Below are positions 3,006 to 55,671 of a stretch of DNA of 64,000 bases, piece after piece. The translations under genes were made by a program, and so were the position numbers. The DNA is from Halorubrum sp. JWXQ-INN 858. GTDB lineage: Archaea > Halobacteriota > Halobacteria > Halobacteriales > Haloferacaceae. Positions within the stretch are counted from its first letter, which is position 1. Each line of letters starts with the position of its first letter. The stretch is from the NCBI RefSeq assembly GCF_009806985.1, contig NZ_WUAX01000005.1, forward strand, positions 1 through 64,000, written 5' to 3'. Below the pieces are notes generated by a model, which was not told the DNA's origin, ran no database searches, and saw nothing but the letters and a program-made list of their open reading frames with translations.

Positions 3006-5639
3006 CTACTCGTCGCCGACCGACGCCCCGTCGGGGACGATGACGACCACGTCGTCGGCCTCGAGGAACTCGCCGTCGCCGGCGTACCGCCGCTCCTCTT
3101 CGATCGCGAACTCCTCGCCCGAGAGCGTGACGTCCGCGACGTGGAGCTCGTCGCCGTCGATCTCGTACTCCTCGCGCGCGATCGCCGCCTCGATGTCGCC
3201 CACCTTGCCGCCGAACTTCGGGCCGACGACCGCGTAGTCGAGGTCGATCCCGCTCACGACCGTCTCGACGGGAGCGTCGGCGTTCGGGTGAACCGTGAGC
3301 TCCCCGACGTGCATCACGCCGGTCACGTCGTCCTCGAAGCCGCGCACGTCGGCGTACACCTCGACGGCGTCGAGCTCCGCGTTGAGGGGGAGCTGGTGCT
3401 CGCTTTTGTACCGTCGGAGCGCGCCGACGACGGCGATGGCGGCCGCCCCGCCCTCGTGGTCCGCCTCGATCCCCAGCGGCTCGGGCCAATCGGCCAGGTG
3501 AACGGAGTCGTTCGCGTCCCCCGTCGCCCCGGCGGCGTACATGTCGTGCCACAGCTCCTCGGTGACGTGCGCGAGGAAGGGTGCGAACAGCTTCACGAAG
3601 CGACGGTGTGCGACCGCGAGGGTGTACGCCGCCGACTCGTCGGCCCGCTCCTTGGCGATCTCGAGGTAGTCGTCACAGAACGTGCCCCAGAAGAACGACC
3701 GGAGGCCGTCGCGGGCCTTCGAGAACTCGCGGCGCTCCAGCCGGCCGGTGAGCGACTCGATCTCACGGTCGAGCTCGGCGAGCATCCAGCGGTCCAGCTC
3801 GCGGAGCCCGTCGGGTCGGTCCGGATACGGGTCGTCCGCGAGCGACTCGACGAGCTTCGAGGCGTTCCACAGCTTGCGGATCAGCTTCTCGCCCGCGCGA
3901 AGCCCCTTCTCCTGGTACGGGAGGTCGTCGCCGATCGCGGAGCCGGCCGCCCAGTAGCGGGCGGCGTCGACCGGGTACTCCTCTAACACCGCGTCCGGCT
4001 CGACGACGTTGCCCTTCGATTTCGACATCTTCTCGCGGTTCTGGTCGAGGACCATCCCGTTGATCATCGTCGACTCGAACGGCACCTCGCCGGTGTGTTC
4101 GTAACACTTGATCACGGTGTGGAACAGCCAGAAGGAGATGATGTCGTGGCCCTGCGGTCGGACGTCCATCGGGTAGATCTCCGGGCGCTCCATCGCGAAC
4201 TCGCCCGCCTCCGCGTCCCAGTCCCAGCCCGCGTTGATGAGCGGGGTGAGCGAGGACGTCGCCCACGTGTCGAGCACGTCGTCCTCGGGGACGAACCCGC
4301 CGTGACCACACTCCGGGCAGGCGTCGACGGGCGGGTCGTCCGAGAGGGGATCAACGGGGAGGTCCTCCTTCTCGGCGAGCACCTCGGCGTCACACTCCTC
4401 GCAGTACCAGACGGGGAACGGGATCCCCGAGGAGCGCTGTCGGGAGATCAGCCAGTCCCACTGGAGCCCCTCGACCCAGTGTTCGTACCGCGTGAACATC
4501 TTCTCGGGGAACCACTCCATCTCGCGGCCCGCCTCGAGGTACTCCTCGCGCTTGTCGAGCACCTCGACGTACCACTGTTCGGTGACGAGGAACTCGACGC
4601 TCGTCCCGCAGCGCTCGTGGACGTTGACCGCGTGGGAGATCCCCCAGCGATCGAGCAGCGCCCCCGCGTCGTCGAGGTCCGCGACGATGGCCTCGCGGGC
4701 CTCCGAGGAGTGGAGCCCCTCGTAGTCGCCGGCCACGTCGGTCATGTGTGCGGACTCGTCGATGGCGACGCGCAGGTCGAGGTCGTGCGCCTGGTACCAC
4801 TCGATGTCGTTCTGGTCGCCGAACGTACAGCACATCACGATCCCGGAGCCGGTGTCCATGTCGACGCGGTCGTCGGCGAGGATCGGGACGTCGTGGCCGA
4901 ACAGCGGGACCTCGGCCCGCTCGTCGACGAGGTGTGCGTTGTCGTCGTCATCCGGGTGGACGAAGACGGCGACGCAGGCGGGGAGGAGTTCGGGTCGGGT
5001 CGTCGAGATCGTGAAGGCGTCGCCGTCGACGACGCCGAACTCGATGTCGTGGAAGTGCGAGTCGCGCTCGTCGTCCTCGGTCTCGACCTGTGAGATCGCG
5101 GTCTCACACTCGGGACACCAGATCGCGGGCGCTTCGTGGCGGTACTCGCGGCCCTTCTCGTACAGGTCGATGAAGGAGAGCTGGGAGACGCGCTGGACTT
5201 CGGGGGAGATCGTTCGGTAGGTGTTGTCCCAGTCGATGGAGAGGCCGACCCCCTGCATCTTCTCGGTGAAGTCCTCCTCGTACTCCAGACAGACCTCCCG
5301 ACACTTCTGTTGGAACTCGCGCCGATCGAAGTCCTGGTGACGGATCTCGAGTTCGCGCTCGGCGAGGCGCTCGGAGGCGATCCCGTTGTCGTCGTAGCCG
5401 AAGGGGTAGAACACCTCGCTGTCGTACATCCGGTGGAAGCGGGCGACGACGTCCTGGAGGATCGAGCCGTACACGTGTCCCCAGTGGAGGCTCCCCGAGA
5501 CGGTCGGCGGCGGCGTGTCGATGGAGAAGGCCGTGTTCGGATCGACCGGGCCGTCCGGGTAGGCGTACGTCGCGTCGTCGACCCAGCGTCGCTGCCACCG
5601 CGGCTCCGCGGCGTCGGGGTCGTACTCTCCGGTGGGCAT
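3006..5639 (-). CDS. valS: valyl-tRNA synthetase
   Basis: Class I synthetase that charges tRNA-Val. At 877 residues it is typical for the archaeal type. Visible motifs are the HIGH box as HWGH (residues 52-55), the CP1 editing domain with TTRPELLPACVAVFVHP, zinc-ligand-like CPEC and CEEC...CPECGHG pairs, the W-W-rich catalytic strand WDWLISRQR, and KMSKSKGN (about residue 535). The C-terminal coiled region fits tRNA binding. Transcription is leftward from a TATA-like GTTAAGG about 28 bases before the start, with a repeat-rich 410-base gap upstream. Confidence 0.97.
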   Translation of the reverse strand: MPTGEYDPDAAEPRWQRRWVDDATYAYPDGPVDPNTAFSIDTPPPTVSGSLHWGHVYGSILQDVVARFHRMYDSEVFYPFGYDDNGIASERLAERELEIRHQDFDRREFQQKCREVCLEYEEDFTEKMQGVGLSIDWDNTYRTISPEVQRVSQLSFIDLYEKGREYRHEAPAIWCPECETAISQVETEDDERDSHFHDIEFGVVDGDAFTISTTRPELLPACVAVFVHPDDDDNAHLVDERAEVPLFGHDVPILADDRVDMDTGSGIVMCCTFGDQNDIEWYQAHDLDLRVAIDESAHMTDVAGDYEGLHSSEAREAIVADLDDAGALLDRWGISHAVNVHERCGTSVEFLVTEQWYVEVLDKREEYLEAGREMEWFPEKMFTRYEHWVEGLQWDWLISRQRSSGIPFPVWYCEECDAEVLAEKEDLPVDPLSDDPPVDACPECGHGGFVPEDDVLDTWATSSLTPLINAGWDWDAEAGEFAMERPEIYPMDVRPQGHDIISFWLFHTVIKCYEHTGEVPFESTMINGMVLDQNREKMSKSKGNVVEPDAVLEEYPVDAARYWAAGSAIGDDLPYQEKGLRAGEKLIRKLWNASKLVESLADDPYPDRPDGLRELDRWMLAELDREIESLTGRLERREFSKARDGLRSFFWGTFCDDYLEIAKERADESAAYTLAVAHRRFVKLFAPFLAHVTEELWHDMYAAGATGDANDSVHLADWPEPLGIEADHEGGAAAIAVVGALRRYKSEHQLPLNAELDAVEVYADVRGFEDDVTGVMHVGELTVHPNADAPVETVVSGIDLDYAVVGPKFGGKVGDIEAAIAREEYEIDGDELHVADVTLSGEEFAIEEERRYAGDGEFLEADDVVVIVPDGASVGDE

Positions 5640-5761
5640 TATTGGGTGTGGCTTCCCCCGGTTACCCCTTAACGGACTCGGTTAGCCGGAAGCCGTCACG
5701 GACCGTCGTGCCGCTCGAACGGCCCGTCGAAGCGCGACACGGCAGATTACTTAAAAGACGA

Positions 5762-5880
5762 CGGCGCGCGCGAGAAACGCGCGCGAGGGAGGTCGGTGGC
5801 GGCCGCGGCGCGGTGCGGTCCCGCGGCCGCCACCGACCGAGGCTGGGGAGGGGCGAGGTGCCGTGCGGTCGTGGAAGGAG
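5762..5880. repeat. structured repeat element, copy A
   Basis: This begins with 28 bases (5762-5789) identical to 29523-29550, forming an 8-bp GC hairpin around the loop agaaa. Next comes a perfect 18-bp inverted repeat, 5791-5808 with 5821-5838. It ends with tggggaggggcgaggtgc and gtgcggtcg (5844-5872), which matches the other copy apart from a few bases. The hairpin and 3' block are conserved while the middle stem differs in sequence but remains a stem. It sits between valS (start 5639) and the methyltransferase (stop 6049). The function is unknown: candidates are a structured RNA, a terminator-like unit or a small non-autonomous mobile repeat. Confidence 0.75.
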
Positions 5881-5912
5881 GGTCAGAGGCAGTCCGAGCG
5901 TCCGGACCACCC

Positions 5913-5990
5913 GAGCCACCCGAACGCTCGGACCGCCCGAGCCACCCGAACGCTCGGACCGCCCGAGCCACCCGAACGCTCGGACCGCCC
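5913..5990. repeat. 26-bp tandem repeat, three perfect copies
   Basis: The unit gagccacccgaacgctcgg plus accgccc repeats exactly at 5913-5938, 5939-5964 and 5965-5990, with degenerate partial units on both sides. It lies downstream of the methyltransferase stop, immediately beside structured element A. It has no spacers and is not a CRISPR array. Confidence 0.9.
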
Positions 5991-6048
5991 GGCCATCCAC
6001 CCACCGACCACCCAGCCGTCCGAATCGCCGAACCGGTCCGAAACGCCC

Positions 6049-6726
6049 TCAGGGCGCGACGCCGACGGTCAACAGCGTCCCCCACGTCCGGTACCGGTCG
6101 ACCATCGCCTCGCGGCTCTCCCAGTCGTCGGTCGGGAACGCGTCGACCGGCGGGATGTGGATCTCGCGGTCGGGGATCGTGTCCTGCTCGGCGACGGCGA
6201 GGCCGGCCTCGCGGAACGCCTCGCGGTACTCCGCCCGGCTCCACAACGTCATGTCGACGGAGATGTGCTCCTGCCACCCGTGGGTCGACTCGCTCTCGGC
6301 GAAGTAGTTCACCGCGCAGTAGAACGTACCGCCCGGCTTCAGGACCCGCCGTACTTCCCGAAGCGTTCGGTGTGGGTCCGCGGCGTAGTAGAACGCCTCC
6401 ATGGTCGAGACGTGGTCGACCGCGTCGTCGGCGAACGGGAGCATATCGAAGTCCCCGACGATGAACGCGACGTCCTCGTCGTCGGTGTATCCGCGCGCGT
6501 TCCGCGCCATCTCCGGCGCGCCGTCGAGGCCGTACCCGCGGTCGATCCCCCGCTCCCGGAGGGCACGTAGCGCATACCCCGAGCCGGTGCCGAGGTCGAG
6601 GACGACGTCGTCCTCCTCGATCGGCATCCGTGCGAGGACGTGTTTGGCGGTGTGCCAGTGACGGTCCTCCATGCCGCGGTCCTTCCCCGAGGTCGCCCAG
6701 TCGTCGAACTCCGCTCGAACGCTCAT
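6049..6726 (-). CDS. class I SAM-dependent methyltransferase
   Basis: The 225-residue product has the Rossmann methyltransferase signature: motif I VVLDLGTGSGYAL, the acidic YGLDGAPEMARNARG, motif II IVGDFDMLPFADDAVDHV, FYYAADPHRTLREVRRVLKPGG (UbiE/COQ5-like) and a C-terminal strand. The conserved N-terminus SVRAEFDDWATSGKDRGMEDRHWHTAKHVL is that of haloarchaeal homologues, so I chose the ATG at 6726 rather than 6768. The substrate cannot be read from sequence. It stands alone, transcribed toward the repeat region. Confidence 0.88.
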   Translation of the reverse strand: MSVRAEFDDWATSGKDRGMEDRHWHTAKHVLARMPIEEDDVVLDLGTGSGYALRALRERGIDRGYGLDGAPEMARNARGYTDDEDVAFIVGDFDMLPFADDAVDHVSTMEAFYYAADPHRTLREVRRVLKPGGTFYCAVNYFAESESTHGWQEHISVDMTLWSRAEYREAFREAGLAVAEQDTIPDREIHIPPVDAFPTDDWESREAMVDRYRTWGTLLTVGVAP

Positions 6727-6875
6727 GAGCGTGCGCACGCAGGCGTGGGTGAAAACCGGATCGGACACGCCCGATGGCCGGAGTCGGCACGATCAGTGGC
6801 CGAATCCGGCGCGCTCCCTGGCGAAAGCCGCACGGATGCCGTCGGTGTTTTGTCGTTCGACGAACCACGGGGCGT

Positions 6876-7319: not shown

Positions 7320-7338
7320 TCGGGAGAGCGGTGGTTAC

Positions 7339-7450
7339 GAGGTCAGTGGTGCGAGGTCGGTCGCGCGAGGTCGGTCGCGCGAGGTCGGTCGCGCGAGGTC
7401 GGTCGCGCGAGGTCGGTGGTACGAGGTCGGTGGTGCGAGGTCGGTGACGC
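7339..7450. repeat. 14-bp tandem repeat, eight copies
   Basis: Eight consecutive 14-base units of the form gaggtcggtcgcgc run from 7339 to 7450. The four central units are identical; outer ones vary at positions 7 and 10-13. It fills the gap between the convergent ends of the DUF2391-like gene (stop 7319) and the mgtE-like gene (stop 7482). No spacers are present. It could mark slippage or act in termination. Confidence 0.92.
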
Positions 7451-7481
7451 GACACGGTGGGCGTGACCACGTCGACCGGCG

Positions 7482-28474: not shown

Positions 28475-29455
28475 ATGCATCCCCTCGATCGCCCCCGGCG
28501 GCTCCGGACGGACGGCGTCAGGCCCCTCGTCAGCGAGACCGATCTCTCGGCGACGGACCTGATCGCGCCGGTGTTCGTCGACGCGACGACGGACGAGCGC
28601 GTGCCGATCGGCACGATGCCCGGCCACGAGCGCGTCCCGGTCGCCGAGACGGTCGCCCGCGTCGAGGAGGTCCTGTCGACCGGCGTCGAGGCGGTCATCG
28701 TCTTCGGGATCCCCGAGTCGAAGGACCCGACGGGATCGCGTGCGTACGCTCCTGACGGCGTGGTCCAGCGCGCGATCCGACGGGTCTCGGCCGAGACTGA
28801 CGCGTACGTCGTCGGCGACGTCTGTCTCTGTGAGTACACCGACCACGGCCACTGCGGCGTGATCGAGGCGGACGCCGAGACGGACCCGACGCTCACCGTT
28901 CGCAACGACGAGACGCTCGACCTGCTCGCGCGGACCGCGGTGTCGCAGGCGGACGCGGGCGCGGACATGGTCGCGCCGTCCGCGATGACCGACGGGCAGG
29001 TGCGGGCGATCCGGGCGGCCCTCGACGAGGCGGGTCACGAGGACGTGGCGCTGATGAGCTACGCCGTCAAGTACGAGTCGGCCTTCTACGGACCCTTCCG
29101 CGACGCCGCCGACGGCGCGCCCGCGTTCGGCGACCGCCGACACTACCAGATGGACCCCGCGAACCGCCGGGAGGCGCTCCGCGAGGCCCGGCTCGACGCC
29201 GCCGAGGGCGCGGACGTGCTGATGGTGAAACCCGGGCTCCCGTACCTCGACGTCGTCCGTGACCTCCGCGAGGAGTTCGACCACCCCATCGCCGCCTACA
29301 ACGTCTCCGGCGAGTACGCGATGCTCCACGCCGCCGCCGAGAAGGGGTGGCTCGACCTCGAGGCGACCGCCCACGAGTCGCTGCTGTCGCTGAAGCGGTC
29401 CGGCGCGGACCTGATCGTGACGTACTTCGCCGAGGACCTCGCCGAGCGCTTATAA
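28475..29455 (+). CDS. hemB: porphobilinogen synthase (delta-aminolevulinate dehydratase)
   Basis: Condenses two aminolevulinate molecules to porphobilinogen in haem and corrin synthesis. The 326-residue product has the metal-binding cluster DVCLCEYTDHGHCG (about 115-128), the two Schiff-base lysines in MSYAVKYESAFYGPFR (about 197) and MVKPGLPYLDVV (about 251), and the QMDPANRREALRE and NVSGEYAM motifs. A cttaaaag TATA-like sequence is about 30 bases upstream. No other haem gene is adjacent. Structured element B follows 68 bases after the stop. Confidence 0.96.
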   Translation: MHPLDRPRRLRTDGVRPLVSETDLSATDLIAPVFVDATTDERVPIGTMPGHERVPVAETVARVEEVLSTGVEAVIVFGIPESKDPTGSRAYAPDGVVQRAIRRVSAETDAYVVGDVCLCEYTDHGHCGVIEADAETDPTLTVRNDETLDLLARTAVSQADAGADMVAPSAMTDGQVRAIRAALDEAGHEDVALMSYAVKYESAFYGPFRDAADGAPAFGDRRHYQMDPANRREALREARLDAAEGADVLMVKPGLPYLDVVRDLREEFDHPIAAYNVSGEYAMLHAAAEKGWLDLEATAHESLLSLKRSGADLIVTYFAEDLAERL

Positions 29456-29522
29456 GGAACCCCGGAGGAGAGCGCTGCTCGCGACCCTTCGCGATCTCAG
29501 GCGCACCCGCGTTCCAGTCCTC

Positions 29523-29625
29523 CGGCGCGCGCGAGAAACGCGCGCGAGGGCCCGGCCGACGGCCGGAGCGACGCGGAGGGCGTCGGCCGACGGGTGGGGA
29601 GGACGAGGTGCGGTACGGTCGGGAG
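29523..29625. repeat. structured repeat element, copy B
   Basis: The first 28 bases (29523-29550) are identical to 5762-5789 of copy A, again forming the GC hairpin with loop agaaa. The middle stem here is a different 9-bp inverted repeat, cggccgacg (29553-29561) with cgtcggccg (29581-29589). The 3' block gtggggaggacgaggtgc then gtacggtcg (29594-29620) matches copy A closely. It lies between the convergent hemB and ferredoxin genes. The function is unknown; see copy A. Confidence 0.75.
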
Positions 29626-29710
29626 GGGAACGGGACTCCCTCTCCGAGTCCCGCGGACGAGGGCCCGAAACGGTTCGCCGGCGTTCGTGTCGCCGCCGGC
29701 TCCGAACCGT

Positions 29711-29953
29711 TCAGACGATCTGCTCGCCGTCGTCGTCGTACACCTCGATCGCGTCGACCGGGCACGTCCGCGCCGCGAACTTCGCGTCGAGCTCCTCGCC
29801 GTCGGGCACCTCCAGAACGAACACGTCCTCGCTCTCCTCCTCGCTCCCGACGAGGTCGGCTTTCCCGTCGTTGAGGTCCTTCTCGAAGGCGTCCCACTCC
29901 GCCACGCACTGGTACATCCCGATACAGGTGTCCCGGTCGAACGTCACGCGCAT
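29711..29953 (-). CDS. ferredoxin, single-cluster type
   Basis: The 80-residue acidic protein MRVTFDRDTCIGMYQCVAEW ends in AARTCPVDAIEVYDDDGEQIV. Only three cysteines of the cluster are seen: C-x5-C (CIGMYQC) and CP near the C-terminus, the layout of 3Fe-4S or non-cysteine-ligated 4Fe-4S ferredoxins such as those serving P450s. No partner oxidase is adjacent. ATG 29953 gives the usual short N-terminus; the frame runs further upstream without family sequence. Confidence 0.88.
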   Translation of the reverse strand: MRVTFDRDTCIGMYQCVAEWDAFEKDLNDGKADLVGSEEESEDVFVLEVPDGEELDAKFAARTCPVDAIEVYDDDGEQIV

Positions 29954-30149
29954 ACGAACGGTACAGCGAGCGGGTACAAAGCCGTGGCGGGCCGGCGGTT
30001 CCCGCACCCCGGGAGTTCTCCCGGTCGGTGAGGGTATCTCCCCCTCGTCCCCTCGGTACGAACGCCCGCTGACGCCGGTGCCCTCCACCGGTCGCTCCGA
30101 CTTCTCGCCCGTCTCCGAGGTTTATAAGCCCCCGTCCGAATGCGGACGT

Positions 30150-38077: not shown

Positions 38078-38160
38078 ACCGGCCCGTCGCGTGGACGTCC
38101 CTTAAAAGTACGCTGAACCGTGAGCCGCCGGGTCGGCGGCCGGCCGTCGATCACGCGGCC

Positions 38161-38285
38161 CGGAACGCTGAGCCACCGGGTACGTCGTCCGGAACGCTGA
38201 GCCACCGGGTACGTCGTCCGGAACGCTGAGCCACCGGGTACGTCGTCCGGAACGCTGAGCCGCCGGTCACGTCGTCCGGAACGCT
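38161..38285 (-). repeat. 29-bp tandem repeat growing out of the 3' end of upp
   Basis: Units start at 38161, 38190, 38219 and 38248, with a partial fifth at 38277 that lies in the upp coding end. The first three are identical (cggaacgctgagccaccggg plus tacgtcgtc); the fourth differs by three bases and carries the upp stop. On the minus strand the repeat begins with the last upp codons, so it looks like duplication of the gene end. No spacers. Confidence 0.9.
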
Positions 38286-38944
38286 CGGTCGCCGGCGTCG
38301 CCGAGGCCGGGGACGATGAACCCGTCCTCGTTGAGGTGGTCGTCGATGGCGACCGTCAGCAGGTCGGCCTCCGGGACCGCGTCGGCGACGCGAACGAGCC
38401 CCACGGGCGCGGAGACCGCCGAGAGCACGAACAGGTTCTCGTAGTCGTCCGCGTCCGCGAGGATGTGATCGAGGACGGCACACATCGTCGAGCCGGTCGC
38501 GAGCATCGGGTCCGCGACGATCACCGTGTCGTCCGCGCGGATCTCGGGCAGTTTCACGTAGTCCACCGTGATCGGGAACTCGCCGTCGTCGTTCATGCCG
38601 GCCTCCTCGTCCCGCCCGGCGGAGATCACGCCCTGTTTCGCCCGCGGGAACGCCTTTAACAGCCCCTCGACGAACGGCGTCGCCGCCCGCAGCACGTTGA
38701 TGATGACGACGTCGTCGAGTCCCTTGACGCGCTCGCCGGTCGTCTCCTCTAACGGGGTCCGCACCGGGACGTACTCCGTCTCCATCGCCCCGTCGATCAC
38801 CTCGTAACCGCAGATGCGGCCGAGCTTGACGAGCCCCTTCCGGAAGGCGACCTGCTCCGTCTCGACATCCCGGAGCCGCGAGAGGGTGTCCTTCGCCAGC
38901 GCGTGCGTGATGAGGTACGCGTCGTCACGGTCTTCGATCGTCAT
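38267..38944 (-). CDS. upp: uracil phosphoribosyltransferase
   Basis: Salvages uracil with PRPP to make UMP. The 225-residue product has the type I phosphoribosyltransferase core: [60 protein letters not shown] (PRPP loop), and the uracil-binding C-terminus [20 protein letters not shown]. The last residues AFRTT replace the usual ending and lie in the 29-bp repeat, so the terminus may have been rewritten by repeat growth. It is alone, on the minus strand. Confidence 0.95.
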
Positions 38945-52427: not shown

Positions 52428-52493
52428 CCAAACCCACACTTTTCGGTGCGGCCTTCGCTTATAACGTTGTGAGCTTCGGGGCACAGTCTTTCC

Positions 52494-52503
52494 TTATAAA
52501 CCT
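52494..52503 (+). promoter_or_regulatory. TATA-like motif, possible antisense promoter
   Basis: tccttataaacc here is as good a TATA box as those before real genes in the window, with a second cttataacg at about 52458. Transcription would start near 52525-52530 and run rightward, antisense to the 3' end of serA (stop 52542). No rightward gene follows, so it could drive an antisense RNA or be a relic of the inserted segment. Confidence 0.35.
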
Positions 52504-54309: not shown

Positions 54310-55665
54310 ATGGACCTCACGATCACGCTGTTCGGTGCGGCCGCCATCGTCGTTCTGACCGGGATCAGCGCGTTCTACTCGAGCTCCGAGCTCGCCGTCT
54401 TCTCGGTCGCGGCCCACCGCGTCGACTCGCTCGTCGCCGCCGACGTCCCCGGCAGCGAGGCGCTCGCCCGGCTGCGGGCGGATCCGCACCGCTTCCTCGT
54501 CACCGCGCTGGTGAGCAACAACGTCGCGAACATCGCGGCCGCCTCCATCGCGACCGCGGTGTTCGTCCAGTTCCTCCCGCCGAGCCAGGCGGCCACCGGC
54601 TCGACCGTCTTCACCTCCTTTTTCGTCATCGTGTTCGGGGAGATCGCGCCGAAGTCGTACGCCGTCGCGAACGCCGAGAAGCACGCCCTCCGCGTCTCCC
54701 GACCCGTGGTCGCTTCTCAGCGGCTCCTCCGTCCGGTCCTGTTCGTCTTCGAGGCGGCCTCCGGGCTGGTCAACCGCGTGACCGGCGGCGAGACGGCGAT
54801 CGAGTCCTACCTCACGCGCGAGGAGATCGAGACGATCGTCCTCTCGAGCGAGGAGGCGGGGGCGATCGACCCCGGCGAGGGGGCGATGATCCGGGGCGTC
54901 CTCGACCTGGAGGCGACCCGCGTCACGGCGGTGATGGTTCCGCGGACGGACATGATCGCCGTCCCCGACACGGCCACGCCGTCGACGGTGCTGTCGACGG
55001 CCGCCGCCGAGGGCGTCACGCGACTGCCCGTCTACGGCGAGAACCGCGACGACGTCGTCGGGATCGTCGACGTCCGCGACGCGATCCGGGCCGACGCCTC
55101 GGGCGCCCCCCTCGTCAGCGTCCTCCACGAGCCGACGTTCGTTCCCGAGTCGAAACCGGTCGACGAGCTGTTCGCGGAGATGCGCGACGGCGGGATCCCG
55201 ATGGTGCTCGTCGTCGATGAGTTCGGCGCGGTCGTCGGGCTCGCGACGATGGAGGACGTCATCGAGGAGGTCGTCGGCGAGATCGTCGGCCGCGGCGAGA
55301 CCGAGCACGTCCGCCTCGTCGACCCCGGAACCGCGAGCGCCCGCGGGTGGACCACGGTCGCGTACCTCAACGAGACGCTCGGGATCGACTTGCCGACCGC
55401 GGGCGAGTTCGAGACGATCGCCGGCCTGATCACCCACCGCGTCGGCCGGCTCGCCGAGGAGGGCGACCGGTTGGAGATCGACGGCGTCACGCTCACCGTC
55501 ACCGAGGCGACCGCGACGCGGATCACGCGCGTGTGCGTCGAGTACCGGTCGGACGACACGGACCCCCTAGACGACACGGACCGATCGGACGACACGGACC
55601 GATCGGACGACACGGACCGATCGGACGACACGGACCGATCGGACGACGCGGACGCGGAGCGCTGA
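54310..55665 (+). CDS. CNNM/CorC-type hemolysin-family transporter
   Basis: The 451-residue membrane protein starts with a DUF21/CNNM domain (about 1-185; FYSSSELAVFSVAAHRVDSL, LVTALVSNNVANIAAASIATAVF, SFFVIVFGEIAPKSYAVANAEK). A CBS pair (about 205-325; VTAVMVPRTDMIAVPDTATPSTVLSTAAAEGVTRLPVYGENRDDVVGIV, LVVDEFGAVVGLATMEDVIEEVVGEI) and a CorC_HlyC domain (about 345-420) follow. Such proteins move Mg2+ or Na+. The tail repeats SDDTDR five times (18-bp units, about 55551-55652), so its length probably varies between strains. Confidence 0.93.
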   Translation: MDLTITLFGAAAIVVLTGISAFYSSSELAVFSVAAHRVDSLVAADVPGSEALARLRADPHRFLVTALVSNNVANIAAASIATAVFVQFLPPSQAATGSTVFTSFFVIVFGEIAPKSYAVANAEKHALRVSRPVVASQRLLRPVLFVFEAASGLVNRVTGGETAIESYLTREEIETIVLSSEEAGAIDPGEGAMIRGVLDLEATRVTAVMVPRTDMIAVPDTATPSTVLSTAAAEGVTRLPVYGENRDDVVGIVDVRDAIRADASGAPLVSVLHEPTFVPESKPVDELFAEMRDGGIPMVLVVDEFGAVVGLATMEDVIEEVVGEIVGRGETEHVRLVDPGTASARGWTTVAYLNETLGIDLPTAGEFETIAGLITHRVGRLAEEGDRLEIDGVTLTVTEATATRITRVCVEYRSDDTDPLDDTDRSDDTDRSDDTDRSDDTDRSDDADAER

Positions 55666-55671
55666 CGGCCC

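Follow-up and report, generated by a model that had tools for sequence, protein, structure and literature searches.

What kind of element is represented by two intergenic sequences of a Halorubrum genome that agree at both ends, differ in the middle and each retain a perfect central stem? The sequences, copies A and B, lie in a 64,000-nucleotide stretch of Halorubrum sp. JWXQ-INN 858, referred to here as the window. A preliminary description, made from the sequence of the window, proposed either a structured RNA or DNA recognized by its shape, and named a recent local duplication as the outcome that would speak against this proposal. The conclusion that A and B belong to a large repeat family, structured, intergenic and multicopy, which is present in Halorubrum and related genera, is well supported.

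Copies A and B in the window

Both copies contain the same 28 bases, CGGCGCGCGCGAGAAACGCGCGCGAGGG, read directly at 5762–5789 (copy A) and 29523–29550 (copy B). An 8-bp G+C stem with the loop AGAAA lies inside them (5765–5772/5778–5785 in A; 29526–29533/29539–29546 in B). The stem that follows is a perfect 18 bp in copy A (5791–5808/5821–5838). Its counterpart in copy B is a perfect 9 bp of other sequence (29553–29561/29581–29589), and the apex of this stem, GCCGGAGCGACGCGGAGGG, is the usual loop of the second hairpin, P2, of the repeat family. A 3′ block is common to A (5839–5871) and B (29590–29621). Direct reading and folding agree with the preliminary description on the shared bases and their hairpin, the 3′ block and the unlike middle stems, and gene calls confirm that both copies are intergenic. 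Copy A lies between genes at 3006–5639 (−), read as valS, and 6049–6768 (−), read as a methyltransferase. Copy B lies between 28475–29455 (+), read as hemB, and 29711–29953 (−), read as ferredoxin. The gene caller was trained on the fetched loci, and the four names derive from inspection of the sequence and translations. Folding energy is striking for copy A (z −3.5) and not for copy B (z −0.6), so that the case for B is one of homology and covariation, not stability.

5759–5871, + strand: copy A, 5′-module (P1, linker, P2 and conserved block); covariance model R1, E=2.7e-7 over 638 kb
5765–5785, + strand: P1 hairpin of A, 8-bp GCGC stem, loop AGAAA; sequence and fold
5786–5790, + strand: conserved linker AGGGA of A, part of GCGAGGGA; invariant in alignment A1
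5791–5838, + strand: P2 hairpin of A, perfect 18-bp stem; sequence and fold, helices 4–6 of the covariation analysis
5839–5871, + strand: conserved 3′ block of A, GAGGCTGGGGAGGGGCGAGGTGCCGTGCGGTCG; conserved in alignment A1 and in the genus
29520–29621, + strand: copy B, 5′-module in the convergent hemB–ferredoxin gap; R1, E=5.1e-6, orthologous site occupied in many species
29526–29546, + strand: P1 hairpin of B, identical to P1 of A; sequence and fold
29553–29589, + strand: P2 hairpin of B, 9-bp stem of other sequence with family-type apex; sequence
29590–29621, + strand: conserved 3′ block of B (ACGGGTGGGGAGGACGAGGTGCGGTACGGTCG); sequence, part of the R1 match

Copy number and taxonomic range

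Covariance model R1 was built from ten Halorubrum copies of other species, none of them from the window. It recovers copy A (42.7 bits, E=2.7e-7) and copy B (37.2 bits, E=5e-6). The search for further copies suggested in the preliminary description yields 22 in the copies' own genome and many across the genus. The resemblance of A to B is well beyond chance: an element query has 27 matches in their genome, and for 22 further genomes of the genus the number ranges from 4 to 27. Used as a query, copy A finds a match in 26 of 39 genomes, including all 22 others of the genus, and has relatives at 95% and 90% identity in its own. In four well-assembled Halorubrum genomes the strict motif GAGGNTGGGGAGGNGNGAGG occurs 107 (G016), 91 (G022), 117 (G019) and 93 (G008) times on both strands together; its reversal, taken as a control, occurs in none of the four. 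Over a sample of the class, R1 is positive in 107 of 391 genomes, including 46 of 46 of the genus, and weak lone matches in distant families may be due to chance. Among the matches listed in a pattern scan of named genomes, the family is found chiefly in Halorubrum and also in Haloparvum, Halobellus and metagenome-assembled genomes. Deeper scoring gives 97 matches in G215, 89 in G165, 23 in G100, 16 in G222 and 10 in G126; on this scoring two other genera have about 90 copies each.

Architecture of the element

The full copy, of about 245 nt, comprises (i) hairpin P1, (ii) the linker GAGGGA, (iii) hairpin P2, (iv) the block CGAGGCTGGGGAGGYGTGAGG and (v) a rod-like hairpin, P3. Aligned full copies read GCGGTGGCGCG-P1-GCGAGGGA-P2-CGAGGCTGGGGAGGYGTGAGGTGCGG...GGGACTC[AG]AAGGGGCAG-P3-CTGGGGCTT[TC]GG, and other genera keep this plan with GGGACTGAAAGGGGC...GGGGCTTTC. 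A symmetric GA/GA step occurs within the stem of P1 and of some P2 hairpins. The apex of P3 is a ladder in which two-pair stems alternate with such steps. Its base stem covaries, with CAAAG/CTTTG exchanged for CGAAG/CTTCG, and GAAAG/CTTTC found in other genera. The linkers are the conserved part of the element; P2 has 150 distinct sequences in 183 copies. The typical element is about twice as long as the preliminary description had it, and includes a third hairpin domain without counterpart in A and B, which are 5′-module versions lacking P3. At 13 loci of their genome read around the core, a P3-type 3′ block is present only in L041.

Some copies also contain a nested unit in which CTGGCAG connects two hairpins, GAGGGACC..GGTCCCTC CTGGCAG CCGGCG..CGCCGG. 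It sits inside P1, P2 or P3 (in L192, L197, L203 and L217, for example), and 52 of its 58 matches, both strands counted, are no more than 320 nt away from the core of an element.

Selection on base pairing and on one strand

In 106 R1 hits, aligned by fitting to the structure and to that extent biased in favour of pairing, 95.6% of cells are paired and all 30 pairs have changes on both sides. The covariation score is 0.403, against 0.098 for shuffled alignments. Moving one arm by one to three columns reduces pairing to 20–50%. Covariation that is destroyed in these slide controls bears out the structured nature first proposed for the element, and the base pairing of the family is under selection.

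G-U and A-C differ in frequency. Because the R1 alignment is fitted to structure, both were counted again on P2 stems anchored at their flanks with no gaps allowed. In each of three sets G-U outnumbers A-C, at about 4:1: 62 to 16 in the R1 model alignment, 18 to 4 in the anchored P2 stems and 53 to 15 in P3 aligned by MAFFT alone (three length classes summed), the counts not being independent across related copies. Strand-symmetric mutation would give 1:1, and the excess of G-U indicates that folding of the + strand matters. The selected form is more likely a single-strand structure, probably RNA, than a shape of double-stranded DNA. Single-stranded DNA would likewise prefer G-T over A-C and is an alternative carrier of the fold. 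Evidence that the element functions as RNA is good, though indirect.

Genomic placement

Copies with called flanks are intergenic in 136 of 138 cases; two are genic. The flanking genes are convergent for 62 of the intergenic copies, tandem for 46 and divergent for 28. Gaps of at least 60 nt in the same loci, element-bearing gaps included, number 125 convergent, 343 tandem and 163 divergent. Convergent gaps thus hold 46% of copies and make up 20% of the background (Fisher 2e-9). Between tandem genes the element shows no preferred orientation (25 versus 21), which counts against a simple role as a 3′-UTR, and a strand-specific role of that kind would not predict the 28 copies between divergent genes.

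The family is confined to the chromosome in Halorubrum. The largest contig carries 89 of 89 places in G008 and all of those among the matches listed in G022. Six Halorubrum plasmids, about 1.8 Mb in total, would be expected to hold some 58 copies at chromosomal density. The whole PLSDB plasmid collection gives one match, beside moeB and rhodanese genes, and searches of phages and IMG/VR gave no family copies.

Orthologous sites and replacement of P2

Loci with shared flanks form 31 clusters, in which 50 pairs have the element in the same orientation and eight have it flipped; for a few of the 50 the two genomes are identical or almost so, and neighbouring elements may account for some of the eight. 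Where the gene order hemB–ferredoxin is kept, most species carry an element at the site. In L194, L195, L199 and L204 just a few to about 20 nt separate the two stop codons. The site is filled in L196 and nearly closed in L195, and hemB is 96% identical between them, so that gain or loss of the element was recent. Close relatives lack the element at some orthologous sites, so that no copy by itself need be essential.

At long-lived sites P2 is replaced as a block while the linkers are kept, a mode of change that goes beyond pair-by-pair drift of a stem and beyond the preliminary description. L192 and L196, with hemB 95.6% identical, were compared by eye: P2 is unrelated, but P3 and P1, nested insert included, are almost unchanged. 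One minimal P1 type, close to that of the window, occupies the valS site in five species together with four different P2 hairpins. Segment by segment, identity at the hemB site is 0.78 for linkers versus about 0.6 for hairpins, with L196 and L216 mis-segmented. In pairs of loci with shared flanks, identity of P2 is about that of random pairs, near-identical genomes excepted. Between the two genomes compared, mean P2 identity is 0.69, and within them it is also 0.69; strong homogenizing gene conversion is therefore not seen, and homogenization of P2 within genomes was rejected for these two.

Other rearrangements were seen at individual loci. The P3 apex is inverted as a block at the hemB–ferredoxin site of L201, relative to other species, and is lost in L209 and L217. 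The repeat of L197 is interrupted, past its P2 block, by an IS6-like element that resembles ISH29.

Relation to known repeats and RNAs

Rfam 15 at gathering thresholds matches only a cut-off SSU rRNA in the window; the preliminary description had likewise matched neither copy to a family. Five element loci of other species gave no Rfam match at E up to 1. No name, function or description of the family was found in the open PMC literature with the search terms chosen, and one may exist elsewhere.

The closest analogues, by likeness only, are the REP, ERIC and CIR repeats of bacteria and the hairpin elements of mitochondria. ERIC and CIR are dispersed intergenic repeats of 100–200 bp that fold into long stem-loops when transcribed; in CIR a linker connects two arms, and ERIC RNA alters the stability of neighbouring mRNA (PMC2229807). 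Repeats of this kind mostly have terminal inverted repeats, TA ends and target duplications (PMC2229807). The haloarchaeal repeats are likewise small, dispersed and intergenic, with stem-loops, but these three terminal features are not established for them. They differ further in their archaeal host, three hairpins, G-rich linkers, tandem G-A loops and wholesale replacement of the central hairpin. Like REP, BIME and REPIN sequences (PMC2817692, PMC3733652 and PMC3116915), the family is high-copy (91–117 per genome), palindromic, extragenic and dispersed on both strands. REP units are 20–40 bp repeats; a palindrome of that length and of conserved sequence is not found here, where the linkers are conserved and the palindromes vary. 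What is found is the mark of a structured noncoding RNA, covariation beyond controls with a one-strand G-U bias.

Mitochondrial double-hairpin and repetitive hairpin elements are not removed from transcripts (PMC2800124). They share with the haloarchaeal family a repetitive intergenic hairpin of diverse sequence, but belong to organelle genomes and are not described as having conserved linkers of this kind; the nested two-hairpin unit is the nearer likeness to them. The intergenic terminator signal of Haloferax is a T stretch, with hairpins upstream of some 3′ ends (PMC7237163); the family shares the intergenic position of such ends and lacks the T stretch. Small RNAs of halite communities include intergenic RNAs conserved among Halobacteria without assigned function (PMC7002113).

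Proposed role and alternatives

The best explanation for the whole, offered tentatively and with a likelihood slightly short of even, is a structured intergenic family whose RNA acts on neighbouring transcripts and whose P2 is swapped. A role in transcripts is preferred in view of the tendency of copies to lie at gene ends and of a fold that concerns one strand. (i) The folded + strand would act as RNA within read-through or intergenic transcripts. (ii) Hairpins and linkers would form a binding or processing site. (iii) This site could set the ends or the stability of neighbouring transcripts, an effect comparable to that of bacterial ERIC or REP RNA. (iv) P2 may be swapped between copies by short-tract gene conversion, with the conserved linkers as homology. 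(v) Any fold of the right shape would be tolerated, leaving hairpin sequence free to change. The copy number of the family requires past mobility to be assumed; present mobility is no part of the assumption. A more specific version is doubtful. It would make the family an undescribed, chromosome-confined, multicopy structured RNA of haloarchaea, with a function that depends on three hairpins of any sequence, on fixed G-rich linkers and on a P3 rod of repeated tandem G-A steps, its cassettes block-exchanged by a dedicated process.

Among the alternatives, a non-autonomous mobile element of MITE or REP type retains the most credibility, while still being rather unlikely. A transposase reading the folded single strand by shape would leave hairpin sequence free, and high copy number on both strands, the filled and nearly closed sites of L196 and L195, the close relatives of copy A in its genome and the nested unit inside copies all fit. 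Confinement to the chromosome and sites common to several species do not, nor is a terminal inverted repeat seen in the copies. TTATAAA-like motifs stand on either side in 25 of 95 full copies, whose ends are poorly defined by empty sites. Compared copy by copy, these flanking matches do not extend into longer duplications and gave no support to target-site duplication by TTATAAA.

Stand-alone noncoding RNA genes, each with its own promoter, are improbable. The complex conserved P3 domain would suit such genes, as would a TATA-like motif within 45 nt upstream of 58 of 173 copies, versus 8 of 173 further up. Relative to the start of the element, such motifs are most frequent at −19 and −50, but they also peak downstream at +30 and +87. 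With the usual archaeal spacing from TATA box to start, the −19 motif would begin transcripts inside P1, and it is not commoner where no upstream gene could read through. Peak position and lack of context dependence weaken the promoter reading.

A landmark of the chromosome acting as DNA, in the form of an extruded hairpin to which a nucleoid or topology protein binds, is less probable again. It would account for wide spread over both strands of the chromosome alone and for the few copies in genes, but the excess of G-U over A-C on one strand is not explained by a site in double-stranded DNA. Transcription terminators between genes are very unlikely, even though copies are enriched between convergent genes and a hairpin can terminate in Haloferax (PMC7237163): only 4 of 167 copies have TTTT in the 40 nt on their 3′ side (against 6 for the other strand and 2 in the control), so that the reading was rejected for want of T runs, and the copies between divergent genes also oppose it. 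A recent local duplication with chance stems would explain two copies with 28 identical bases in one window, but is refuted by the 22 copies in that genome, the presence in all 46 genomes of the genus, strong covariation and sites conserved between species.

If the family acts as RNA, an unannotated structured element occupies dozens to more than 100 intergenic sites per haloarchaeal chromosome, and any study of small RNAs, transcript ends or transcript stability in haloarchaea would have to reckon with it. Block replacement of P2 at fixed sites provides a natural series on palindrome exchange with the surroundings kept. The covariance model can be used to annotate genomes in which stretches of the family now appear empty.

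Other features of the window

A second hairpin lies at 29670–29712, between copy B and the ferredoxin stop codon, and a 26-nt unit is repeated about four times head to tail at 5894–5991, directly after copy A. Short tandem arrays occur at 7338–7463 (14-nt unit), 38153–38297 (29-nt unit) and 55544–55669 (18-nt unit). TTATAAA occurs eight times in the window against 0.26 expected, at 29449–29456, 30121–30128 and 52458–52500, and at some loci such motifs stand in rows about 30 nt apart. At positions 1–76 the minus strand carries the beginning of a 16S rRNA gene, which is truncated at the edge of the window.
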